42,709 bases of DNA, taken from positions 1 to 42,709 of the IMG/VR virus record IMGVR_UViG_3300044684_000123; one strand, given 5' to 3'. Shown in pieces: positions 1 to 42,709 of the stretch. The stretch comes from a virus. The stretch's first letter is position 1; each line of letters opens with the position of its first letter. Below the pieces are notes generated by a model that saw only the letters and a list, made by a program, of their open reading frames with translations, searched no databases and was not told the DNA's origin. Position numbers and translations under genes: made by a program.

Positions 1-127
1 TGTTGAATCCGTCGCCAGCGCCGTATGTGGTGCCGATGGCAGCAAACAGGTTCGCATACGCGGCGCGGCTAACGGCGGCTCCGTTTGCCTTGAGCCATCC
101 AGCTGGCGCAGAACTGCCAGCGAAGTG
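1..127. repeat. 127-bp terminal direct repeat, left copy
   Basis: Bases 1-127 are identical to 42583-42709. A repeat of exactly 127 bases matches the largest k-mer commonly used by short-read assemblers, so I infer an assembly overlap marking a circular (or circularly permuted) molecule rather than a biological terminal repeat. It falls inside the tail-fibre gene, whose reading frame continues correctly across the joined ends, which supports circular closure. The unique genome length would be about 42,582 bp. Confidence 0.95.
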
Positions 128-4408: not shown

Positions 4409-4451
4409 ATTCTCGACGGCATGGGGTGCGCGTTCCTCCCGTGGGATTTCC
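4409..4451 (-). promoter_or_regulatory. Predicted activator-dependent late promoter, copy 1 (baseplate W-J-I-fibres)
   Basis: On the minus strand the invariant 19-mer GGAAATCCCACGGGAGGAA (4451-4433) is followed after exactly 18 nt by GAGAAT (4414-4409), a -10-like hexamer. It is the only one of the five copies whose hexamer differs (GAGAAT, not GACAAT). It lies mostly in the V-W intergenic gap, so here the DNA sequence is conserved without coding for the EIPREE peptide seen at three other copies. Role inferred. Confidence 0.7.
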
Positions 4452-6535: not shown

Positions 6536-6819
6536 TACTTCGCCTTCGGCTTGGCGCGCGACGGCAGCGCGTTCGGCGGCAGCTCGGTGGTGCCCTGCGC
6601 GGTTGCATCAGCAGATGCCTGCGCAGCTGCGGCGTTCGTGTCGGCGTCGTCTGCGTCGTCGTCACCCAGGACCGAATGCAGTTCGGCCTTGCCACGGCGC
6701 AGCAGGTCCTTCGCTTCGGACTCGACCATTTCCACGATGGTGCCGGCGCGCGCAATGGCACCTTCGAACACGATTGCGCCGGTCAGACGAAGCTGCACGA
6801 CTCGTTCGGAAAAGCGCAT
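6535..6819 (-). CDS. Small protein downstream of capsid, function unknown
   Basis: 94 aa. The N-terminal half is ordered (VVQLRLTGAIVFEGAIARAG, then ESEAKDLLRRGKAELHS); the C-terminal half is low-complexity Asp/Ala/Thr with a basic Lys/Pro tail (PSRAKPKAK). It lies between the capsid and the FII-like joiner, separated from the capsid by a hairpin terminator, so a head-completion or capsid accessory role is possible. I do not recognise a family. Confidence 0.6.
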   Translation of the reverse strand: MRFSERVVQLRLTGAIVFEGAIARAGTIVEMVESEAKDLLRRGKAELHSVLGDDDADDADTNAAAAQASADATAQGTTELPPNALPSRAKPKAK

Positions 6820-6843: not shown

Positions 6844-6871
6844 AAAAGGGCCGCCGTATCTGGCGGCCCTT
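6844..6871 (-). terminator. Rho-independent-type hairpin after the capsid gene
   Basis: A perfect 10-bp stem (AAGGGCCGCC / GGCGGCCCTT) with a 6-nt loop is followed on the minus strand by TTTTC. It stands 26 bp past the capsid stop and would partly stop transcription, keeping capsid message above that of the downstream connectors, or stabilise the capsid mRNA 3' end. Confidence 0.75.
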
Positions 6872-6896
6872 CAGGCTTGCTACGAGCAGCCGGCTA

Positions 6897-8915
6897 TTAC
6901 GGCGTAGCCGGCTTCGACGCGTACGTGAACGATTCCGGGTGGCGGATGTTCATGTCCACGTCCTGGAACACGACGATGCGCGTGCCGCCGCTGGTGGACA
7001 GCGAATACGGGTCCACCATCATGTCCAGGCCCGACCACATCGCCACGATGAAGTCCGACCAGTTGCCGAACCACACATCGCCGTCATCGATCTGGTTCGT
7101 AACGTCAACGCTGTATCCGTTGATCGTGTTGCCTTGCTCCCAAATGGTGCCACCCTGGGCGATTGCCGCGCCGGGGAACTTCAGCGTGGTCTTTGCGTCG
7201 CCGCGCGCGCGCGCGTTGATGACGTACGACAGGCTGCCCACGTCCGCGTCAGCCGCCGCGACTTCCGTTTCCATGTCCACGTATTCCTGGAACGTCGGAT
7301 ACGCGCCAGCGAGCGCCACGGCGTGAATGCCTGTCTGGTTCTTCAGGCCCTTCGGCGTATTCGCCGTGCCGGCGCCGTACAGCACCGCCTTATCCAGCGC
7401 GAGCGCCATCACCTTCAGCAGGTCGTTGCGCACGATCAGTTCCGCATCCGGGGTGGACTGCAGCATCAGGCGGCGCGTGATATCGGTGTACGCGGCCAGC
7501 GTTTTCGGGCTGAACCCGATCTGGTCGATACCCGGTTCGCTTTCGTTCGGCGATGCGCCTTCGCCCACCCAGTACGCCTGCGTCGCGCTGTTCTGGCGCG
7601 GGATATCGACGTTGCCGACCAGGCCGCCAAGCGTCATCACGCGCTTCAGTGCCCAGGTCTTGTGACGCAGCAGTTCGATGAACTGGTCCGCCAGCAGGTT
7701 CTGCGCGATGGCGTTCGAGCCGGGGCCGCCGGCCGGCGTCGTGGTCGAAAACGCGCGGTTCAGCACGTCAGCCGGGATCAGAATGCCCTTCGACTGCTTG
7801 CCGTATTGATCTTCAGCCGCACGCGAGCATTCGAATTCGAACGCAGCGTCCTTCTGGAACTGCTTGTTGTTCGGGTTGGCCAGCGCGCGGATGGCGCGCA
7901 TGATGGAGAACTGGCGCGCTTCCTTGTCGGTCAGCCCCAGTTCGCCTTCCTTCACCTGCTCGGACAGCGGCTTCCGCGCGTTGCGCTCCGTCGCGAAGTC
8001 GGCCAGCAGCTCACGCCGGAAATCTTCGGCGGACTTGCCTTCGGCGATGAACTGCAGCGCCTTGTCCACCTGGCCGTACTGGCGGCCCATTTCGGTCAGC
8101 TCGCGAACGCGTGCGCGTTCGGTTTCCTGGCCGCGCTGTTGCGCCGCCGACGACGTGTCGATGGCACGTTCGATGATTTCGACGTCGCCGGTATCGTTGC
8201 CGGCATCGTCCACTGCAACGCGGCACAGATTGCCCTGGGCGTCGCGGAAGGTGCGAAATTTCATGATTTGTCGTTCCTTAGTTGATCCACGCCCAGCGGC
8301 GGAATTGTGAACCTGCGTCGGATTGTCCGCCGGCTTCGCGCCTGTTTCCTCCCGTGGGATTTCCGCCTTGCGGCCCACTCCCACGGTGTCGTCTGCCGGC
8401 ACGGACACGAAACTGATTTCGAACGGCAGCCAGTCGGTGACGCTGTACACGTCCACGTCGCCGCGCTGCTCGATAAGGCGCATGCCATTCACCAGGTAGC
8501 CCACGGACACCTTGGTGATGATGCCGTCAGCGATATCCTGCAGCAGCTGTTCGCCGGCCGGCGAACGACTGATGCGCACGACGGCGCGGCCCTTCCGGTC
8601 GCTGTCGATGCGCACGGACTCGACCACGCCGCGCTGGTCGTCCCAGTTGTGCATCCAGAGAACGGGGGCGCCGTTCTGCAGGCGCGACAGGTCAACAGCG
8701 CCGGCATCGTGCGAAAGGATTTCGATGCCGAACCAGCGTTCGTATTCGACTTCGCTGCTGAACGACAGCTCGACGGTGCGCGCTTCCAGGTCAACGGCGC
8801 CAACATCGGCGACTCGCTGCAGGCCGCCGCGCTCGCGGATTTCGTGCAGCCGCTCGGCCAGCTTGTTCGTTTGCGACGCGCCGCCGTCGCGCGTCATGAT
8901 GCGCTGAATGTTCAT
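6897..8915 (-). CDS. Prohead protease fused to HK97-type major capsid protein
   Basis: 672 aa from ATG 8915 (ATGA overlap with the portal). Residues about 1-185 are an S78/U35 prohead protease: the His in VLWMHNWDD and the Ser in TKVSVGYLV are the expected catalytic pair. A linker with EIPREE follows (about 187-215). Residues about 218-672 are an HK97-fold capsid (IAQNLLADQFIELL, AVLYGAGTANTPKGL, WFGNWSDFIVAMWSGLDMMV). Inside the frame, an ATG at 8264 (MKFRTFRDAQGN) has a good Shine-Dalgarno (AAGGAACG) and lies 51 nt below a predicted late promoter, so a separate 455-aa capsid subunit is probably made as well. Fusions of this kind occur in other phages; the embedded promoter is the unusual part. 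Confidence 0.92.
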   Translation of the reverse strand: MNIQRIMTRDGGASQTNKLAERLHEIRERGGLQRVADVGAVDLEARTVELSFSSEVEYERWFGIEILSHDAGAVDLSRLQNGAPVLWMHNWDDQRGVVESVRIDSDRKGRAVVRISRSPAGEQLLQDIADGIITKVSVGYLVNGMRLIEQRGDVDVYSVTDWLPFEISFVSVPADDTVGVGRKAEIPREETGAKPADNPTQVHNSAAGRGSTKERQIMKFRTFRDAQGNLCRVAVDDAGNDTGDVEIIERAIDTSSAAQQRGQETERARVRELTEMGRQYGQVDKALQFIAEGKSAEDFRRELLADFATERNARKPLSEQVKEGELGLTDKEARQFSIMRAIRALANPNNKQFQKDAAFEFECSRAAEDQYGKQSKGILIPADVLNRAFSTTTPAGGPGSNAIAQNLLADQFIELLRHKTWALKRVMTLGGLVGNVDIPRQNSATQAYWVGEGASPNESEPGIDQIGFSPKTLAAYTDITRRLMLQSTPDAELIVRNDLLKVMALALDKAVLYGAGTANTPKGLKNQTGIHAVALAGAYPTFQEYVDMETEVAAADADVGSLSYVINARARGDAKTTLKFPGAAIAQGGTIWEQGNTINGYSVDVTNQIDDGDVWFGNWSDFIVAMWSGLDMMVDPYSLSTSGGTRIVVFQDVDMNIRHPESFTYASKPATP
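8322..8364 (-). promoter_or_regulatory. Predicted activator-dependent late promoter, copy 2 (inside the protease-capsid gene)
   Basis: The 19-mer GGAAATCCCACGGGAGGAA (8364-8346) is followed after 18 nt by GACAAT (8327-8322). Transcription would begin near 8315, giving a leader of about 50 nt before the internal capsid ATG at 8264. In frame the element encodes EIPREE-x8-DN in the linker between protease and capsid domains, where added residues are tolerated. Confidence 0.7.
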
Positions 8916-10492
8916 TGTTTCGGTTCCTTGCCCTGGGAAACGTCGCCCTTGCTCGGTGCCGGTTCGGGCGCGGGCGCAACGCCCATGATGATGTTGACGA
9001 TGGTTTCGGGGATGCCGCTGTCCTTCATCAGCTGAATGTCGGACCCGATTTCCTTGAACACCGTTTCGGGATCGTGGCCGCGCTCGCGGATCACCTGCGA
9101 CGGCGACGTGAAGCCGCCGCGAACTTCCGTCACCTTCGCCGTCGCGTCCGACTTCGGGTCAATCCATTCCCACCGGCGCGGCTGCCATTGCACGTTCTTG
9201 TACATGGCGAGTCGCGAAGCCGGCAGCGGCTTGCCGTCTTTCTTCACGATCAGATTTTTCAGCAGCGCGATTTTCAGCCACTCGAAGTAGACAGGCGCGC
9301 AGAGCGTTTCAATCAGCCACGTCTGCAGCTCTTTCCAGTTGTCGCGCTCGTCCACCTTGCCGTCGCGGATGGACGAAAAATTCACGCCTTCCAGGTCGTT
9401 CGCCAGGCTGTTGTACGCCACACCCATGCCAGCGCCTGCGCCGCGCAGCATCGCCTTGTTGAACACGGCGAATTCGCCGCTGGGGTAGTTCGGATTGAAG
9501 TCAGCGATTTCCGCGCCTTCAGGAAGTTCATGAATGGCGAGCGGCTCCGCGTTGATCGTGCTGGCCACGTCGTCGCCGTCGTCCACTTCCGGCCCGAACC
9601 CTTCGCGATACTGGATGAACATCATTTTCGACGCGGACGCGCGCGCGTTCTGCACGGCCGCATCTTCGAAGCCCATCAGGTGGTGCAGACGGAACAGGCT
9701 GGTTGCCGCCCAGGGGATACCGCGTCGCTGGCTTGCCCACTCGGTGACGAAGCCATGAATGATTTCATCGGCCGGGATGCGAACGAAGCCCTTTCCGCTG
9801 ACGCTGTAGTAAAAATACGCGTCCCATTCGTCCGTGCTGGTGAAATGGTACGCAATCGGCTTGCCGTAGCGGTTGAACTCGATTCCCTGACGGATGAAAT
9901 GGCCGTTCTTGCCGAAATTCGAGTCCTGGTAGCGAACCGGCAGCCGCTGCGGGTCGATGACTTGCAGCGCGAAGCCGAACGGCCCCGCGTCATCGCCGTA
10001 CACCTTGCGTATGATGAATTCGCCATCGCGTGCGGCGTGCTCGACGGCAAGCGCCTGAACGCCCCGCCACGTCAGCTTTCCGGTCACGTCGCAGTTGCCG
10101 GTCATTCCCCATTCGCGCCAGCTCGATTCAATCGCTTCGTTCGCGTTCTTGTCGGGCTTGCCGTTTGCCAGCGTAGCCTTCGCCTGCAGGCGAACGCCGT
10201 GGTGGCCGACGATGTTCTGGCGGCAGCGACGAACGAACGCCTTCATGTAGTCGTTGTTCGACCACTGTTCGCGCGAACGCGCCACCAGCGTCGGCTGGCG
10301 CATCGTGATGAAGTCGTCAATCGGCGTGGGAATGGCGCCCCACTTGTCGTTCGGATCAACAAACGACGCCTTGAACAACCCGGCGATGGAGCGCGCGAAC
10401 TTGCGACGCGGCGTTGCCGGGGCAATGTCGGAAATCGGCATGCCGGCGACTGGCTGCGCGGCGGCGCGCTTGCCGAAGAAAGGGATTTTCAT
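8912..10492 (-). CDS. Portal protein, lambda gpB family
   Basis: 526 aa from ATG 10492 (MKIPFFGKRAA), an ATGA overlap with the upstream gene; a longer frame upstream is rejected. Family motifs include ARSREQWSNNDYMKAFVRRC near the N-terminus, then GEFIIRKVYGDD, VIDPQRLPVRYQD and GMGVAYNSLANDLEGVNFSS. The portal dodecamer forms the DNA entry vertex, docks terminase and later the connector. The pairing with a GpA terminase and a fused protease-capsid is a lambda-like head module. The length is normal for the family. Confidence 0.92.
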   Translation of the reverse strand: MKIPFFGKRAAAQPVAGMPISDIAPATPRRKFARSIAGLFKASFVDPNDKWGAIPTPIDDFITMRQPTLVARSREQWSNNDYMKAFVRRCRQNIVGHHGVRLQAKATLANGKPDKNANEAIESSWREWGMTGNCDVTGKLTWRGVQALAVEHAARDGEFIIRKVYGDDAGPFGFALQVIDPQRLPVRYQDSNFGKNGHFIRQGIEFNRYGKPIAYHFTSTDEWDAYFYYSVSGKGFVRIPADEIIHGFVTEWASQRRGIPWAATSLFRLHHLMGFEDAAVQNARASASKMMFIQYREGFGPEVDDGDDVASTINAEPLAIHELPEGAEIADFNPNYPSGEFAVFNKAMLRGAGAGMGVAYNSLANDLEGVNFSSIRDGKVDERDNWKELQTWLIETLCAPVYFEWLKIALLKNLIVKKDGKPLPASRLAMYKNVQWQPRRWEWIDPKSDATAKVTEVRGGFTSPSQVIRERGHDPETVFKEIGSDIQLMKDSGIPETIVNIIMGVAPAPEPAPSKGDVSQGKEPKQ

Positions 10493-11040
10493 CGTTCGCT
10501 GAACTTCACAATGACGGGGCGCCCCCAGCGCGAACGCCCGCACTGCTTGGCGCGCTCGCGCGCCACCTGGGTGGCGTAGTACGCGCGCAGCTTCAGCAGG
10601 TCAGCGATGGGCGTGCGCCACAGTTCGCGGTTGTTGATCGTGTACCGCTGCTGGTCCTGCGTCGCGCGCTTCGCCAGCACGGCGTCGATGGCTTCCAGCG
10701 CGATGACGGCCTGGCTGCGCCCGTCGTACGGCTCATCGACGCTCGCCAGGTCGGGAACGATGACAAGCTGGCCGCCGCCGGCATCCATCAGCGCGCTGCC
10801 TTTGCTCGCGCGCATGCTGTACCAGTAAGTGCCAGGCTGCCATGCGCCAGTCGTCGCGGCATTAGCCGCGAATGCGTGCGACGTGCCGTCAGGCGTCGCC
10901 GTCAGGTCGATAGCTTGCGGGCCGCGCAGGATCGCGCGCAGCGTCCAGTCCGGCGCCGGATAGGCGGATGCGACCACGACGGCCTGGAAATCCAGGCCAG
11001 CCGTGATTTGTGCGGGAAGGGCGGAAGCGCAGCGGGTCAT
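10489..11040 (-). CDS. gpW-like head-tail joining protein with an N-terminal beta domain
   Basis: 183 aa. The C-terminal third (about 115-170: ALEAIDAVLAKRATQDQQRY, RELWRTPIADLLKLRAYYAT) matches the small gpW-type head-joining proteins usually found alone (about 70-90 aa) between terminase and portal. The N-terminal about 100 residues are beta-rich (ITAGLDFQAVVVASAYPAP, WQPGTYWYSMRA) and look like an Ig-like or decoration domain fused to it. It starts 4 bp after the terminase stop, is coupled to the portal by ATGA, and is the first gene below late promoter copy 3. Family call is from motif resemblance. Confidence 0.65.
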   Translation of the reverse strand: MTRCASALPAQITAGLDFQAVVVASAYPAPDWTLRAILRGPQAIDLTATPDGTSHAFAANAATTGAWQPGTYWYSMRASKGSALMDAGGGQLVIVPDLASVDEPYDGRSQAVIALEAIDAVLAKRATQDQQRYTINNRELWRTPIADLLKLRAYYATQVARERAKQCGRSRWGRPVIVKFSER

Positions 11041-11043
11041 CGA

Positions 11044-13122
11044 TCACCATTTCGTGGCCCATGTGCCCCTTCCTTTTCTCGCATTCAGGGCACGTTTAGA
11101 CCGAACAATGCGGCCATTGTCCTGACGCGGCGCCTGCTGTTCCTCCCGTGGGATTTCCGCCGGTTCGTTGTCGTTTGCGGTCGATTTGCGCATGTCCTCG
11201 ACCATATGAGCGAGTTTTTCGGCTCTTTCTCCGTATTTTTTCTCGAATTCTTCGCCAGCTTTTTGCTGCGGAACTGCCATGCGCATGCGTTCTGCGATGC
11301 GTTTAAACGACGGCTGCATGATCTTCAGCGCGGCGTAGTTGTACACGCGGCAGTCCAGCTTTTCGTTGCGGTCGCGGTCGTTCTTGCGCCAGTCCCGCAC
11401 CGGCTGGCCCTTCACGTAGCGGACCACCAGGCGTTCGGCCGTCATCTGCTTGAAAAATTCTTCGTTCCAGTCGTCACCAATCGGGAAGTGACAGAACCCA
11501 GGCCCTGGCTTCGTCTGCGCCAGGCGCCGCATAACCACCAGCTTGGCTTCGTCCACGCCGACGCGGAACAGGTCGGTGAACTTCGAACGCTTTTTGCCAG
11601 TCTGCTTGCGGTGCGGCTTCTCCACGATGGGGATGCCCCAGCCGCCCAGGCCCTTGATGCCGAATATGCGGCGGCCAGTCTTGCCGCGCAGCCAGTCGTA
11701 CGCAGCTGCCGTCATGCCGCCAGTGCCGCCCGTGTCCACGCACGTGCCTTCGATGCGCATCAGCGCGCCGCTTTCGTGGCGGTACGTGTTCGCCAGCACG
11801 TCTTCCAGGTCGTTCCACACGTCCGGCATCAGCGGGTCGCCGTACAGCACGCCCGTTTCGATGGACCACGATTCTTCACCGAAGCCCCACGCGACCACTT
11901 CGTATTCCAGGCGGTCGTCCTGCATGTCCACGCCGCACGACAGCCACAAGCCGCCCATCGGCACCTGCGCGGCGTATTCCTCGCGCCGGTTCAGCAGGCT
12001 GTCGGGGTCTGCCTTGTCGCCGGCAGCGAACGGCCAGCCAAGCGACACGTTCACGAACGACTGCAGGTCGCCCAGGGCAAGCTTGTCCAGGTACGACTGC
12101 ACAATGTCGCGCAGCCGGCGGAACGTGGAAGCCATTTCCGGCGCGTGAAACGATGCGTGCCCCTTGAACGGCTTCGTGGCGATCCAGCCGCCGCCTTCGC
12201 GCTCCGCATTGCGGATAGCGGCGATGCGCTGGCCATCGTCCCACAAGCTGCCGCATCCGATGCACGCGTACATCGCGGTGCCTGGTTCGTGGTCTTTGCC
12301 GAAATCCTTTTCCGCATCCTCGATGCTGGTGGACTGCCGGCCAGTCCAGTGCACGTTCTCCCAGCGGAAATACTGCAGCTCGCCGCAGTCAGGGCAGCGC
12401 ACGTGCCAGCGGCGTTGATCGCCGGCCAGCCAGCCCTTGTAAATGCGGCTGGTTTCCAGGTCCACGGGCGTGCTGCTGCGAATGTCCAGGCGGTCATCGC
12501 CGAACGTCGCCGAACGCTGCGCCAGCAGTTCCAGGAAGTCGCCTTCGGCCGTCGTGTCGTAGCCGTCCACTTCATCGGCCTGGGTGACGGGCGCCGAACG
12601 GCCGCGTGCGGTTTTCGGGCTGCCGGCCCAGCTGAACATCAGCCAGCCGCCGACGTACGAAATCATGCGGCTGTTGTTCACGCCTTCGCGCCCGCGCGGC
12701 TTCGCCATCTTCGCCGCAATCTTCGGGTTCGCTTCCAGCATCGGCTTCAGCTTCGTTTCCTGGAACGTCGCCATGTCGCCTTCGCTTGGCTGCGCGAAGA
12801 TCTGTGAACGCGGTTCGTGGTCGATGAAATAGCCGGTGATGCACTGCTGGGCCGTCGTCTTGCCAAGCTGCGCGGACAGCATCATGTCGATGCGGCGGAT
12901 GCCGGGTTCCTTGATCGCATCCAGGATGCCGCGCTGAATCGGCGCGTTGTCGAACTTGATCGGCCCAGGGATCGCGTTGCCGATGGGGATGCGCACGTTC
13001 TGTTCCGCCCACACGGACGGAAGCATGTCGGGCGGGGGCACCAGGTTTTCGGCGGCGCGGCGCGCGGCTTCAGCGACGGCGCGCCAGTTGCTGAACTGTT
13101 CAGCTGCGTTCGTCGTCGCCAT
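11044..13122 (-). CDS. Terminase large subunit, lambda gpA family
   Basis: 692 aa. The ATPase domain contains MMLSAQLGKTTAQQCITG (adapted Walker A) and a SWAGSPKTARGRSAPVTQADEVDGY segment whose ADEVD is the Walker B. A zinc knuckle follows (VRCPDCGELQYF and YACIGCGSLWDD), and the C-terminal nuclease domain has SCGVDMQDDRLEYEVVAWG with its acidic residues. This is typical of GpA terminases that package DNA from cos sites. It overlaps the small subunit by 23 bp. The C-terminal tail carries ANDNEP at 11167-11178 and EIPREEQQ, the latter being coding read-through of late promoter copy 3. A GTTTAAAC palindrome lies at 11301. Confidence 0.95.
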   Translation of the reverse strand: MATTNAAEQFSNWRAVAEAARRAAENLVPPPDMLPSVWAEQNVRIPIGNAIPGPIKFDNAPIQRGILDAIKEPGIRRIDMMLSAQLGKTTAQQCITGYFIDHEPRSQIFAQPSEGDMATFQETKLKPMLEANPKIAAKMAKPRGREGVNNSRMISYVGGWLMFSWAGSPKTARGRSAPVTQADEVDGYDTTAEGDFLELLAQRSATFGDDRLDIRSSTPVDLETSRIYKGWLAGDQRRWHVRCPDCGELQYFRWENVHWTGRQSTSIEDAEKDFGKDHEPGTAMYACIGCGSLWDDGQRIAAIRNAEREGGGWIATKPFKGHASFHAPEMASTFRRLRDIVQSYLDKLALGDLQSFVNVSLGWPFAAGDKADPDSLLNRREEYAAQVPMGGLWLSCGVDMQDDRLEYEVVAWGFGEESWSIETGVLYGDPLMPDVWNDLEDVLANTYRHESGALMRIEGTCVDTGGTGGMTAAAYDWLRGKTGRRIFGIKGLGGWGIPIVEKPHRKQTGKKRSKFTDLFRVGVDEAKLVVMRRLAQTKPGPGFCHFPIGDDWNEEFFKQMTAERLVVRYVKGQPVRDWRKNDRDRNEKLDCRVYNYAALKIMQPSFKRIAERMRMAVPQQKAGEEFEKKYGERAEKLAHMVEDMRKSTANDNEPAEIPREEQQAPRQDNGRIVRSKRALNARKGRGTWATKW
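11116..11158 (-). promoter_or_regulatory. Predicted activator-dependent late promoter, copy 3 (portal/head block)
   Basis: The 19-mer (11158-11140) is followed after 18 nt by GACAAT (11121-11116). It lies within the last 40 codons of the large terminase gene, where it encodes EIPREE-x8-DN, and would drive the gpW-like joiner, portal and protease-capsid from about 70 nt upstream of the first start codon. Confidence 0.7.
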
Positions 13123-14837: not shown

Positions 14838-15045
14838 CGTCAACCCCGATGGCTTTCGGCTTCAACCAGCCGCGCCACACGCAGAACGGACGCAGTGCAT
14901 GGCGCCACATCCATTCGCCGATCAGCAGCAGCGAATATGCCGCCGCGACGAACGCGGCGAATTCACCCCAGCTGGATATCCCGATGGCGGCTAGTGCGCC
15001 CATCAGCTTCGCCGCGAGAAACGGCGTTTGCCCCTGTTGGTCCAT
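14821..15045 (-). CDS. Holin, HP1-like family
   Basis: 74 aa from ATG 15045 (MDQQGQTPFLAAK) with AAGGGC 8 nt upstream. An alternative ATG at 15075 lies upstream of the predicted transcription start, so it is disfavoured. A hydrophobic region (LMGALAAIGISSWGEFAAFV then AAAYSLLLIGEW) can make two short transmembrane segments, and a basic patch and acidic tail (KPKAIGVDDADPA) follow. The GEFAAFVAAAYSLLLIGEW pattern resembles HP1-type holins as I recall them. First lysis gene below late promoter copy 4, followed directly by the endolysin. Confidence 0.75.
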   Translation of the reverse strand: MDQQGQTPFLAAKLMGALAAIGISSWGEFAAFVAAAYSLLLIGEWMWRHALRPFCVWRGWLKPKAIGVDDADPA

Positions 15046-15496
15046 TGACGCGCCCTTGTTTTCGAATAGGCGCATTGTCGTTCGCTGCTGTCGGGATTTC
15101 CTCCCGTGGGATTTCCACACAAACGTTCCGAACGTGCCTGTCCGTCACGCCGACGATTGCCGCGATATGGGACGTTGACATGCCGGCGCGCCACATATCG
15201 GTGATGATCCTGTCCCTATAACTCCGGTAAATCTCGCTGCAGCTCGCGGGCTTCAGGATTTCGCCGCCGAAGTGCTTGCACATCTTCACCGCATCGTTCC
15301 AGCCTAGGATGCGCACCAGGTCGTGCGTCACCGTCAGACGCTGCGCGGTCGGCACATACAGGATGACTTCCGATTGCATCGCGCCAGGATAACGCTTGTC
15401 GCGCCGCTCGCATCGCGGCAATTGCCCGACGAGATACAACGCACGTTCACGGCCGATCACGTCGGCTATTTCCTGCACGCTTTTCGGTAATCGCAT
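14963..15496 (-). CDS. Mor-family transcription activator (likely late-gene activator)
   Basis: 177 aa from ATG 15496, preceded by AAGGGGGTG; a GTG at 15511 is possible but its spacing is poorer. The Mor/C signature of Mu is visible: IGRERALYLVGQLPRCERRD near the N-terminus, then RILGWNDAVKMCKHFGGEIL and the HTH (DMWRAGMSTSHIAAIVGVTD, RHVRNV) at about residues 100-127. Mor/C proteins are dimers that bind a dyad just upstream of -35-less promoters and recruit RNA polymerase. The C-terminal about 50 residues (EIPREEIPTAANDNAP...) lie beyond the Mor fold and coincide with late promoter copy 4, so the gene carries a promoter for the lysis block at its own 3' end. It overlaps the holin by 83 bp. 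Confidence 0.88.
   Translation of the reverse strand: MRLPKSVQEIADVIGRERALYLVGQLPRCERRDKRYPGAMQSEVILYVPTAQRLTVTHDLVRILGWNDAVKMCKHFGGEILKPASCSEIYRSYRDRIITDMWRAGMSTSHIAAIVGVTDRHVRNVCVEIPREEIPTAANDNAPIRKQGRVNGPTGANAVSRGEADGRTSRHRDIQLG
15074..15116 (-). promoter_or_regulatory. Predicted activator-dependent late promoter, copy 4 (lysis block), inside the mor-like gene
   Basis: The 19-mer (15116-15098) is followed after 18 nt by GACAAT (15079-15074). It is read in frame as EIPREE-x8-DN, and here the DN is part of an AANDN motif. Expected transcription start is about 15067, before the holin ATG at 15045. Confidence 0.7.
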
Positions 15497-15511
15497 ATCA
15501 CCCCCTTTCAC

Positions 15512-23454: not shown

Positions 23455-24086
23455 GCTGCACTCTCCGACGCCGGCACGTTGTCGTTCGCTATCTTACCAA
23501 GGTGCATAACGAACTTGTGCTTGTGGTACGAGCCAACGCGCGTATGGCCAAGCGCAATCATTTGCGCCTTGGTTCTGTTTGTTGTTGCCTTTGGCGCGAC
23601 TTGCCGCCCTTCGGCATCAAGCCATCGCGGGTATGGGCCAGTGCGCCCCACGTAGTCCCAGTTCGATGCCTTGTAGACGTGGCCGGTATGGCCCTGGCTT
23701 TCATCGGCATATGTGACCAGCGAAACGAAACGCCCATCGCGCCGAATCATTTTCACGCTGCGCGCGAGCAGGAAACTGGCAGCATTCTTCGGGACGCCAG
23801 GCAGGATCACCATTCGCGTTAGCGAAAGAACTCGCTTCCATTGCTCGCGATTGACGCTCTCGCAAGCAACACGCGTTGGCGGCAGCCACCATGCTACACC
23901 GCACAGCATACCGTCGCTTTTCCGGAACAGCCCATGTACGTACACTGCAGTGTTGCTTCCACCGCGCGAGTAATGATGCGCTCGCACCATATCCTGCGCG
24001 TCCTTCAACGGCGCATTGGACACGAACCAGTCCGACTTGCGGAATTTCGGCTCGTTGTCGTTCGCCGCAATCTTACGCTCGCTCAC
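23451..24086 (-). CDS. Mom-like DNA modification protein (GNAT-type fold), putative
   Basis: 211 aa from GTG 24086, which has GGAGCGAAC at ideal spacing; an ATG at 24104 is also in frame. The central block is LSLTRMVILPGVPKNAASFL, LARSVKMIRRDG, FVSLVTYADESQGHTGHVYK and ASNWDYVGRTGPYPRW. This combination (P-x-NAASF, TYAD..GH.G..Y.A.NW.Y.G) is how I recognise the family of phage proteins related to Mu Mom, which modifies adenine to evade host restriction. It carries ANDN motifs at both ends (IAANDNEP near the start, IANDNVPA near the end). The call is from motif memory; an unrelated GNAT-like function remains possible. Confidence 0.65.
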   Translation of the reverse strand: MSERKIAANDNEPKFRKSDWFVSNAPLKDAQDMVRAHHYSRGGSNTAVYVHGLFRKSDGMLCGVAWWLPPTRVACESVNREQWKRVLSLTRMVILPGVPKNAASFLLARSVKMIRRDGRFVSLVTYADESQGHTGHVYKASNWDYVGRTGPYPRWLDAEGRQVAPKATTNRTKAQMIALGHTRVGSYHKHKFVMHLGKIANDNVPASESAA

Positions 24087-26293: not shown

Positions 26294-27703
26294 CTATGCA
26301 GCGCGTCTATTGCGGAAGCCGAAGCGCTTTCTCGCCCACTGCATCGGGAAGTCGTAGCCGCGCTTGCGGCCCAGCGCCACCCAGTCGTCCAGCGTCTTGC
26401 AGTCCTGTTCCTCGCGCTTGCGCATCGCGCGCACGCGCTGTTTGTCGGCTTCGGTCATCTTCACCAGCTCGCCTTCGCCGACTTCGATTTCCTTGGCTTC
26501 GGCCAGCAGAATTTTCCCGCACGTGCATTTGTTCGGGATCGGCCGGCGCCACTGGCGGAAACAGCCGTCGCATGTGATCGGTGGTGGCGGCCCGTTGTCG
26601 TTCGCGTGTTTCTTCCCCTTCGCGCGTCCTTCCAGGTCCCATTCGCGTTCGTCGTCCGGGAAACCGTGCCGGCTCGAATTCCCCGCATGGTCATTGATGA
26701 TGCCGGGTCGGCCCCCCTTCGGCCGCATGCAGCGCATCGATTCCTGCAGATACTTAGACAGCGACATGGTGGGGTTCGCCAGTATCGCCGCATCAATCGT
26801 CACGGGCTTGCCAGCCCACGCTGACAGGTCGAAGCCTTCGCCGAACAGTCCGACGTTCCATAGCACTTTGATTTCGTCGTTCGCGTACGCCTGGATGACG
26901 CGCTTGCGCTCCGCGTCATCCGTTCCGCCATCCAGGTGTGCCGCAGGAATGCCGGCAGAATTGAACAGGTCGGCCATGTACCGACTGTGAGCCACGTTCA
27001 CCGCGTAGCCGACCGTCAGCAGGCCGCCCGCGTTGCGCTTCCAGTGCGTGACGATATCGCCGATGATCTTCGGTTCGCGCATGCGCTGTTCGGCGTCGCC
27101 CTTCGCGAAATCGCCCATCTGCTTACGCGCGCCCTTCATATCTGGCGTGCTCGGCGCGTATATCTCATACGGCGCCAGGTTCCCCATCTGGATCAGTTCG
27201 GCCGTCGTCGGCCCCAACACCATTTCATCGAAGTATTCGCCCAGGCCCGTGCCATCCAGGCGCCAGGGCGTTCCCGTCAGGCCGATGTGGTATGCGTTCG
27301 GCCACGCGGCCATGATCGCCGCCCAGCCTGCCGCGCCGATGTGGTGGCACTCGTCCCATATGACTGCTTTAGGTTCGGGCAATTTCGCGAGCCGGTTTTT
27401 CAGCGTGTCGATGCTGCAAACCTGCACGCGAGCATTGATGTACATCGGATGGCCAGCGGCGATGAACGAATGCGGAAGCGCGCAGTCGTTGAACGTACCA
27501 CTGGTCTGCTTCAGCAGTTCCTGGCGATGACAGTTAAAGAAGGTCGTCTGTTCGCGGCGCGCGAAAGCCTGCGCGATGAACGCAGCAATGACGGTTTTGC
27601 CGCCACCAGGCGGAAGCACGATCAGCACGCGACGCACGCGACGCAGCGCTTGCCCCGCGCGCGTCACAAGGTCCGACTGGTAGTCTCTAAGTAGTATAGC
27701 CAT
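26294..27703 (-). CDS. SF2 DNA helicase (DEAD/DEAH-like) with C-terminal zinc finger
   Basis: 469 aa. Helicase motifs: Q-motif area LLRDYQSDLVTRAGQAL, I at LIVLPPGGGKTVIAAF, Ia near FFNCHRQELLKQ, II at VIWDECHHIGAAGW, III at GLTGTPWRLDG, then the second RecA-like domain with KVLWNVGLFGEGFDL and QESMRCMRPKGGR (motif VI). A linker contains HANDNG, followed by a zinc finger CDGCFRQWRRPIPNKCTCG and a basic C-terminal domain. It is a phage replication/recombination helicase of the UvsW/RadD-like type. Its start is 54-100 bp from the divergent winged-helix gene. Confidence 0.88.
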   Translation of the reverse strand: MAILLRDYQSDLVTRAGQALRRVRRVLIVLPPGGGKTVIAAFIAQAFARREQTTFFNCHRQELLKQTSGTFNDCALPHSFIAAGHPMYINARVQVCSIDTLKNRLAKLPEPKAVIWDECHHIGAAGWAAIMAAWPNAYHIGLTGTPWRLDGTGLGEYFDEMVLGPTTAELIQMGNLAPYEIYAPSTPDMKGARKQMGDFAKGDAEQRMREPKIIGDIVTHWKRNAGGLLTVGYAVNVAHSRYMADLFNSAGIPAAHLDGGTDDAERKRVIQAYANDEIKVLWNVGLFGEGFDLSAWAGKPVTIDAAILANPTMSLSKYLQESMRCMRPKGGRPGIINDHAGNSSRHGFPDDEREWDLEGRAKGKKHANDNGPPPPITCDGCFRQWRRPIPNKCTCGKILLAEAKEIEVGEGELVKMTEADKQRVRAMRKREEQDCKTLDDWVALGRKRGYDFPMQWARKRFGFRNRRAA

Positions 27704-33301: not shown

Positions 33302-34603
33302 TTATGCCGCCTCCGCGAACTCGCGTGATTGATTTTCGCTATCGGTTTTCTTTTCCGATTTGATACGCTTCGCCGGCACCACCACGTTCTTTTCGAACCA
33401 CTTACCCCACTTCGTCATCGCGGCGCGCATCTGCGGCAGATAGTCCGTGTGATCGTAGTGGATGCCGCCAGCGTCCTTGCGGGCGTGCTGCTGCAGCAGG
33501 TCGCGCGTGAAGCGATCCACCAGCGCACCGTCGCCCATGCGGGACTTCCAGGTGCGGCGCAGGTCACGCGCCTGGAACGGGGCGCAGCAGTCCAGCGATG
33601 CGATGTGATGCGACACGGCCAGGAAGCCCATGCGTTCCGACTTCGAACCCGTGCGGGCGGGGAACAGCGGGCCGTCGCCGTGCCAGCGCTTCAGGCGCTT
33701 GAATATCTCGACAGCCTGCGGCGGCAACGGGATGACGTGCTGGTGTTTGCGGCCCTTCGTCTTTTCGGCTGGAATGGTCCACACGGCGCGCGCTGTATCG
33801 ACTTCGCGGCCGTCCACCTTGATGGTTTCCTGCACGCGCTGACCGCAGAGCATCACCAGGCGCGCGCAGTCGCCGGACCCTTCGTCCGTCAGGTTAGCCC
33901 ACACGGCTGCCATTTCTTCAGGTGACAGGTTGCGCGCTCGCGCCTTGTTCGCGCGCGGGTCCTTCGGCACGGCGGCCACCGGGTTCGCCTGGATGCCCCA
34001 GTCGTACGTCACTTCCTGGGTGTAGTCGTTCGTCGCCTTCATCCCCCACCCGAACGCCGACGACATATAGGTGCGCTGGATATCTGCCGTGCGCAGCGCG
34101 CCGCGCTTCGCCGCAGCCACCAAGGGAACGCGGATATCTGCCGGCGTCACGTCGCCAGCCAGCTTGTCGCGGCCCAGCTGGTCGGCGGCGTTGTACTTGC
34201 CCGTCAGCAGCACGTTTTCCACGTGGCCGGCGGAACCGGCATCGCGCGCCTTCAGGTGCGCCACGTATTTCTTGAACAGATTTTCGACGGTCGGCGGCTC
34301 GGTGTCCTTCGCCACTTCTAGGGCTGCAGCCGGCGCGCTCGCGATCTTCACGACGGGCCGCACTACCTTCTGGAACTCGGCGCGCGCCTCGCCCAGCGAC
34401 ATGGCCGGGTAACGGCCGATCTGCTTGCGCCCGCGCTTGTCGCCTTTCTTCCAGAACGCGAACCACTCGGCCGTCACGCCGGCTTTCGTCTTGCGGATGC
34501 GCAGGCGCAGGCTGCCGCCGCCGTATTCCTGGGACTTGTCGTTCAGCGTCTTTTCGCCGTCGCAGTTCTTTATCGCGGCATCAATTTGGGGCTTTGTCAG
34601 CAC
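33302..34603 (-). CDS. int: Tyrosine-recombinase integrase (P4-type)
   Basis: 433 aa from GTG 34603 with GCGAGGCG upstream. N-terminal DUF4102-like arm-binding domain (SLRLRIRKTKAGVTAEWFAF, GRKQIGRYPAMSLGEARAEF), a central SAM-like domain and the catalytic domain. Active-site residues: Arg in LVMLCGQRVQETIK, Lys in EKTKGRKHQHVI, Arg in ARDLRRTWKSRM (where the usual first His of HxxR is Arg, as in a subset of the family), His in QQHARKDAGGIHYDH and the likely nucleophile Tyr in IHYDHTDYL. It lies next to the tRNA-Gly-type attP core and two pairs of arm repeats. Confidence 0.93.
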   Translation of the reverse strand: MLTKPQIDAAIKNCDGEKTLNDKSQEYGGGSLRLRIRKTKAGVTAEWFAFWKKGDKRGRKQIGRYPAMSLGEARAEFQKVVRPVVKIASAPAAALEVAKDTEPPTVENLFKKYVAHLKARDAGSAGHVENVLLTGKYNAADQLGRDKLAGDVTPADIRVPLVAAAKRGALRTADIQRTYMSSAFGWGMKATNDYTQEVTYDWGIQANPVAAVPKDPRANKARARNLSPEEMAAVWANLTDEGSGDCARLVMLCGQRVQETIKVDGREVDTARAVWTIPAEKTKGRKHQHVIPLPPQAVEIFKRLKRWHGDGPLFPARTGSKSERMGFLAVSHHIASLDCCAPFQARDLRRTWKSRMGDGALVDRFTRDLLQQHARKDAGGIHYDHTDYLPQMRAAMTKWGKWFEKNVVVPAKRIKSEKKTDSENQSREFAEAA

Positions 34604-41249: not shown

Positions 41250-41292
41250 ATTGTCCCGCGCGCACGCGCGCGTTTCCTCCCGTGGGATTTCC
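41250..41292 (-). promoter_or_regulatory. Predicted activator-dependent late promoter, copy 5 (sheath and rest of tail)
   Basis: The 19-mer (41292-41274) is followed after 18 nt by GACAAT (41255-41250), with expected start about 41244, some 38 nt before the sheath ATG. It lies directly after a strong terminator and outside any supported coding sequence, so conservation here is not explained by protein. Confidence 0.75.
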
Positions 41293-42274: not shown

Positions 42275-42709
42275 TCAGAACTTGATGCAGGCCAGCAGCG
42301 CGACGTTACGCGGGCGCGCAACGCCAGCGTTCGGGTACTGCGTAGATGCCGGGTTGACGATGTAAGAAAGCGATACGCCAGGATAGTCGCTAACCAGGTA
42401 CGGGTCGGCGCCGCATCCGGCGGCCGTGCCGCGAATCGTGTCCACGGTGGGGTTGGTGCTGGGATCGTCGTACGTTACCAGCGTGCCCTTCTGCGACGAG
42501 CCAAGCGCGCGCGACGCATCCACGCCTCGCCCATCATCCCATCCACGAATGAACTCGCCGCGAAGGTCTGGCAGGTTGAACGTGTTGAATCCGTCGCCAG
42601 CGCCGTATGTGGTGCCGATGGCAGCAAACAGGTTCGCATACGCGGCGCGGCTAACGGCGGCTCCGTTTGCCTTGAGCCATCCAGCTGGCGCAGAACTGCC
42701 AGCGAAGTG
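42275..42709 (-). CDS. H: P2 gpH-like tail fibre protein, C-terminal part (joins to base 1)
   Basis: Continuation of the fibre gene that starts at 1048; bases 42583-42709 duplicate 1-127. Open frame across the window end down to TGA 42277-42275. It contains TFNLPDLRGEFIRGWDDGRG, the conserved tail-collar signature, followed by VDASRALGSSQKGTLVTYDD and the variable tip with SDYPGVSLSYIVNPAST and RPRNVALLACIKF. The end RPRNVALLACIK is the standard end of enterobacterial-type fibres. Tip residues determine host range. Confidence 0.88.
   Translation of the reverse strand, partial: HFAGSSAPAGWLKANGAAVSRAAYANLFAAIGTTYGAGDGFNTFNLPDLRGEFIRGWDDGRGVDASRALGSSQKGTLVTYDDPSTNPTVDTIRGTAAGCGADPYLVSDYPGVSLSYIVNPASTQYPNAGVARPRNVALLACIKF
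42583..42709. repeat. 127-bp terminal direct repeat, right copy
   Basis: Identical to 1-127; see the left copy. Marks circular closure. Confidence 0.95.

Follow-up and report, generated by a model that had tools for sequence, protein, structure and literature searches.

An activator-type late promoter and an internal capsid start predicted within a phage protease-capsid fusion gene

We analyzed a 42.7-kb IMG/VR virus record in its entirety (hereafter the window) and propose that an activator-dependent late promoter nested in the coding sequence of its protease-capsid fusion makes free capsid precursor, while the fusion itself supplies the protease. We consider this reading likely (probability roughly 0.82), in the absence of RNA or protein data. 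It rests on a promoter signature, a 19-nt box followed by a −10 element, that is maintained in the coding DNA of the linker between protease and capsid; the support is strong conservation across phages, without transcript data.

The fusion gene and its internal start

Burkholderia phage Mica is colinear with the minus strand of the window, with matching parts of 84% DNA identity spanning 60% of the first 20 kb and capsid fusions that are 75% identical. Mica (Micavirus) and its Iiscvirinae/Jilinvirus relatives have the same gene order, fusion, and box positions as the window, but their deposited annotations list a single capsid CDS and mark neither the promoter nor the internal start. The ends of the window (1–127 and 42583–42709) form a repeat of exactly 127 bp. 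Since short-read assemblers often have 127 as their largest k-mer, and the relatives Mica and Mano carry cos annotations, this repeat probably stems from overlap in a circular assembly rather than from a true terminal repeat of the phage. An integrase gene (phrog_1; 33302–34603, minus strand) makes a temperate lifestyle probable, although the integrases of several relatives are broken. The elements of the fusion locus are as follows:

8912–10543, minus strand: portal protein
6897–8915, minus strand: protease-scaffold (delta)-capsid fusion, 672 aa (phrog_617, E = 1e-182)
8265–8399, minus strand: disordered linker between the protease and delta/capsid domains, residues 173–217 (AlphaFold pLDDT < 50)
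8274–8279, minus strand: Shine-Dalgarno AAGGAA of the internal start
6897–8264, minus strand: nested ORF for a 455-aa capsid precursor (delta plus HK97 capsid domain), 49.6 kDa
6845–6872, minus strand: intrinsic-terminator hairpin directly 3′ of the fusion, followed by TTTTC (−22.8 kcal/mol, z = −4.9)

The full-length fusion starts at ATG 8915, with its own AAGGAA upstream, and contains a Peptidase_S78 domain at residues 75–177 (PF04586, 34.8 bits) and a Phage_capsid domain at residues 403–665 (PF05065, 138 bits), both over the Pfam cut-off. In AlphaFold predictions, M218, the internal start, falls one residue past the low-confidence linker and structure picks up at residue 219, with the caveat that the capsid part of the fusion is poorly modelled (mean pLDDT 61). 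A solved relative is available (8gta, E = 1.7e-77). The solved capsid of the related phage R4C comprises only the C-terminal 268 residues, which is expected after cleavage and is compatible with a capsid derived either from the fusion alone or from a nested start.

Translation from ATG 8264 would yield a product beginning MKFRTFRDAQGN, with the start codon ~50 nt downstream of where RNA from the linker promoter is expected to begin. We found a start at this linker-delta boundary, in frame, in 99 of 99 distinct full-length fusions (96 ATG and 3 GTG, counted within 5 codons of the aligned position), down to 37% identity and even where the sequence after it is unrelated. Shine-Dalgarno pairing is also stronger at the internal start than at later in-frame methionines (mean −5.27 versus −2.13 kcal/mol; p ~1e-35, among loci that are related), although S-CBS3 and S-LBS1 have no clear Shine-Dalgarno sequence there. 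The peptide pattern used in one viral scan spanned the internal methionine, a possible source of bias, but larger scans with other patterns gave the same result.

Internal starts with a Shine-Dalgarno sequence also occur in R4C, RcCronus, phiHAP-1, and Stenotrophomonas S1, and strong ones are present in very divergent capsid parts, at M207 of locus L136 (Stenotrophomonas phage S1) and M189 of locus L133 (R4C). The divergent R4C and Stenotrophomonas S1 cases suggest that a nested start may be general to protease-capsid fusions. We infer from sequence, with no protein data, that two products are the general design of this family of fusions and that the linker promoter was added in one large group.

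An alternative is that the 672-aa fusion is the sole product and processes itself, leaving the internal ATG as a relic of a once-separate capsid gene. Its support is the published annotation of the related protein in phage Murka as one propeptide of 684 aa (PMC10892653). The retention of the start codon in every one of the distinct fusions, with its Shine-Dalgarno sequence kept while the flanking linker is unconserved, argues against this and makes it very unlikely. The first-pass annotation had claimed that protease and capsid domains are fused in a 672-aa ORF, which the Pfam domains bear out, and that ATG 8264, with a Shine-Dalgarno sequence ~50 nt below the expected transcript start, opens a 455-aa product, which held at the sequence level. 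Its claim that this codon is an internal capsid start is supported by conservation across phages, but actual initiation at 8264 remains unproven.

The linker box and its copies along the late region

The linker contains a 19-nt box, GGAAATCCCACGGGAGGAA, that occurs in five exact copies in the window, all on the minus (late) strand, against 0.03 expected at ≤3 mismatches. The first bases of the copies on that strand are 15116, 11158, 8364, 4451, and 41292, and GACAAT or GAGAAT lies 18 nt below every one of them. Three of the five are in coding DNA:

8346–8364, minus strand: activator box, capsid-linker copy
8322–8327, minus strand: −10 element GACAAT, 18 nt below the capsid-linker box
11044–13122, minus strand: terminase large subunit (terL)
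11140–11158, minus strand: coding copy of the box at the 3′ end of terL, with −10 GACAAT at 11121–11116
15098–15116, minus strand: coding copy of the box at the 3′ end of the late activator gene, with −10 GACAAT at 15079–15074
4433–4451, minus strand: box in the gap between baseplate genes V and W, non-coding, with −10 GAGAAT at 4414–4409
41274–41292, minus strand: non-coding copy of the box, past a terminator and ahead of the tail sheath gene, with −10 GACAAT at 41255–41250

The tail sheath ATG (41206) is downstream of the last of these. From the sequence we would place the RNA 5′ end of the linker promoter at ~8315. By inference, and without RNA data, the terL-end box should drive the head-tail joining, portal, and full-length fusion genes, and the activator-end box the lysis and terminase genes. 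Predicted late promoters are likewise embedded where the terL and activator coding sequences end, in relatives as in the window, and promoter sequence therefore shapes the C-terminal tails of these proteins. Separately, a repeat, CGGCACGTTGTCGTTCGC (reverse GCGAACGACAACG, coding ANDN), is present nine times in the window (for example at 23472–23489, 24048–24065, and 26588–26605), in some cases near promoter boxes.

A conventional sigma70 promoter at the linker was rejected, as a scan with the sigma70 consensus found no promoter at that site. By eye, a dyad can be seen in the box of the window (TCCCACGGGA) and of Murka (CGGAAATTCCG), and none is clear in, for example, Arya. The fold of the leader RNA is ordinary (z = −0.25).

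Comparison with 13 named relatives (Mica, Mano, ep3, PPpW-3, Murka, Persinger, Arya, MQ-4, Alexa, KA2-1, ECOO78, Bas97, and PT1) showed that the box sequence changes from genus to genus, yet copies within a genome match closely at the same places: in the capsid linker, at the 3′ end of terL, between baseplate genes V and W, and ahead of the sheath gene. Seeds derived from the sheath or V/W site differed from their own genome's capsid linker by a mean of 0.27 mismatches, compared with 5.69 for the linkers of other genomes, and none of 100,000 random seed reassignments did as well as own-genome pairing. Without any seed, the linker and the terL 3′ region had at least 15 of 16 nt in common in 75 of 90 loci, as against 1.9% of control windows (120 nt, taken from the same capsid genes). 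In sigma70 −10 elements, positions 2 and 6 are the most important; when the register was set by the box only, A2 and T6 were present without exception, in 75 of 75 linkers and 75 of 75 terL sites (chance ~4% each). This register came from an ungapped alignment with a box-only check, as gapped MAFFT alignment misplaced it. We note that the loci are related, so p values overstate their independence.

The position of the linker box is likewise fixed: in 75 loci it lies within coding sequence, a short way upstream of the internal start, and the 71–113 nt from box start to internal ATG always leave room for a 5′ leader. In the distant fusions of VP882, S-CBS3, CRP-811, and S-LBS1 the internal start is kept and no matching box was found, and the internal start is therefore independent of the linker promoter. 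The first-pass annotation had placed a late promoter copy in the protease-capsid linker; all of its elements held at the positions given for them, and conservation supports reading them as a promoter.

Could the motif instead act at the level of the protein (EIPREE...DN), for example as a linker peptide or a protease site, with the DNA repeat as a by-product? In favor of this, the activator, terL, and capsid copies are all read in one frame. However, codon third positions are identical between copies, and the boxes diverge strongly between genera while being copied within genomes, with the −10 element fixed 18 nt away. Because two of the five copies are non-coding, one of them directly past a terminator, the constraint acts on the DNA and not on the encoded peptide. 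We rejected a peptide-level origin of the repeat on these non-coding copies, and regard the explanation as all but excluded.

Another possibility is that the box is a site for some other protein with dispersed sites, such as the phages' ParB-like protein, and no promoter at all. The relatives do encode a ParB-like protein and some boxes are partly palindromic. Against this, all copies are oriented along late transcription, with terminators preceding them and late genes following, and an invariant −10-like element stands at fixed spacing from the box, which leaves this option very unlikely.

The reading of the linker copy as a late promoter leaves the question of which message feeds the internal start. 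A terminator-like hairpin follows the fusion in 33 of 97 loci by a strict scan (1.7% of controls). In Mica a terminator is annotated at 6741–6764, directly past the fusion. With a terminator so placed, the linker transcript would be mainly a capsid messenger in such phages (the window and Mica). Alternatively, the internal start could be used mostly on a long polycistronic messenger, the linker promoter being only one of several boosters of late transcription along the head-tail operon. This view can point to the internal start being more widespread than the box (VP882, S-CBS3, R4C, phiHAP-1), to boxes recurring every few kb across the late region, and to the post-fusion terminator being detected in only about one-third of loci. 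It is nevertheless unlikely, given the fixed placement of the linker box just upstream of the internal start within coding sequence and the strong hairpin directly 3′ of the gene in both the window and Mica.

A candidate activator for the box

The presumed reader of the box is encoded in the same late region:

14963–15511, minus strand: Mor/C-family late transcriptional activator (phrog_836, E = 3.6e-25)

We assigned this protein via PHROG 836 and not Pfam, as its Pfam Mor score (21.5 bits) is under the 24.9 cut-off; the Murka activator scores 30.3 bits. A Mor/C-family activator is present upstream in 42 of the 47 loci with enough upstream sequence. A viral scan with the activator as the query returned two loci only.

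Box and activator distances covary after capsid distance is removed (partial r 0.34, 2/5000). The recognition helix by itself covaries only weakly with the box (partial r 0.18, 40/3000), less than the remainder of the activator does (0.33, 5/3000). Recognition helices tend to agree among phages that have a box in common: IAAIVGVTDRHVR is common to the window, Mica, and L068, S-(E/R)-KWV is found in four phages with the GGAACCACYGCCAGCGGAG box, and S-(A/I)-Y-(R/W)-VRE in four phages with CGGGGAACC-type boxes. Since the helix-only statistic is weak, the link between protein and box is likely but not shown, and recognition of the box by its activator is probable in the absence of binding data. 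The linker promoter would thus be of the Mor/C-activated type, with a box and a −10 element but no −35, an assignment supported by conservation in which binding and activation by the activator are inferred.

Strongly divergent boxes, each with a characteristic helix, were seen in ten loci (L091, L100, L102, L043, L054, L055, L111, L125, L065, and L072). Such pairs might amount to a natural DNA-recognition code for Mor-family proteins.

Proposed model and relation to known systems

In the model we propose, one gene is nested in frame within another at the fusion locus, which has two starts and is served by two late promoters. The Mor/C-family activator, encoded before the lysis genes, would bind the 19-nt box (~−49 to −31) in lieu of a −35 element and recruit host sigma70 RNA polymerase to the −10 GACAAT. 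The terL-end promoter would give a messenger for the head-tail joining protein, the portal, and the full 672-aa fusion, whereas the linker promoter would give a shorter messenger from ~8315 that lacks the protease, has ATG 8264 as its first ribosome site, and is ended by the hairpin. The predicted outcome is plentiful free 455-aa delta-capsid precursor and fewer fusion molecules. The fusion would co-assemble through its capsid part and bring the protease into the prohead, where the protease may then cut the linker and delta domains and free the mature capsid domain.

The box, the −10 element, the internal start with its Shine-Dalgarno sequence, the terminator, and the activator gene, together with their joint evolution, are shown by sequence and conservation. 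Activator binding, the transcript, initiation at 8264, the product ratio, and co-assembly are inferences. The further claim of the first-pass annotation, that a strong internal promoter makes free capsid and a low-copy fusion solves the stoichiometry problem, is accordingly unproven as to both strength and purpose.

If the two-promoter reading is right, it explains how a fused gene escapes the problem of one protease per capsid, and the two-product reading would correct many phage annotations that list the capsid as one protein of ~600–700 aa. The box allows the late regulon of Iiscvirinae and relatives, a myovirus group that has received little study, to be predicted by sequence alone, and dozens of naturally divergent activator-box pairs are on offer for studying DNA choice by Mor-family proteins. 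A bolder reading, toward which the balance tips only slightly, is that the fusions of this family are generally two-product nested genes, and that in one broad group the linker promoter has been rewritten with the activator in each lineage, giving a natural library of Mor-family activator-site pairs.

We found no internal promoter or start in such a protease-capsid fusion in the open-access literature searched, and the passages searched in the ECOO78, KIRK, Murka, R4C, and BASEL collection papers contain no transcript or capsid N-terminus data. Both nested protease genes and promoters of the Mor/C type have precedents; that literature yielded no description of an activator-specific promoter conserved in the coding linker of a protease-capsid fusion and combined with an internal capsid start.

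HK97 (protease gp4; capsid gp5 with a delta domain) has the same order of S78 protease, delta, and capsid as the window, but there protease and capsid are separate genes; in the window they form one fusion that contains a nested start for the capsid. Lambda C/Nu3 and Mu I/Z are protease ORFs with an in-frame internal start that yields an abundant assembly partner with a common C-terminus. Their nested product is a scaffold, with the capsid a separate gene, whereas in the window it is the capsid precursor, and a predicted activator-dependent promoter lies within the linker. In Mu, Mor binds a 16-bp dyad centered at −43.5 in Pm, replacing the −35 element (PMC4390567), and C acts at four late promoters (PMC4461284). 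The promoters inferred here resemble these in using a Mor-family late activator, a site that replaces or adjoins the −35 element, and host polymerase. They differ in that the box is centered at ~−40, its specificity diverges widely between genera, and three of the five promoters lie in coding sequence, one of them inside the capsid gene.
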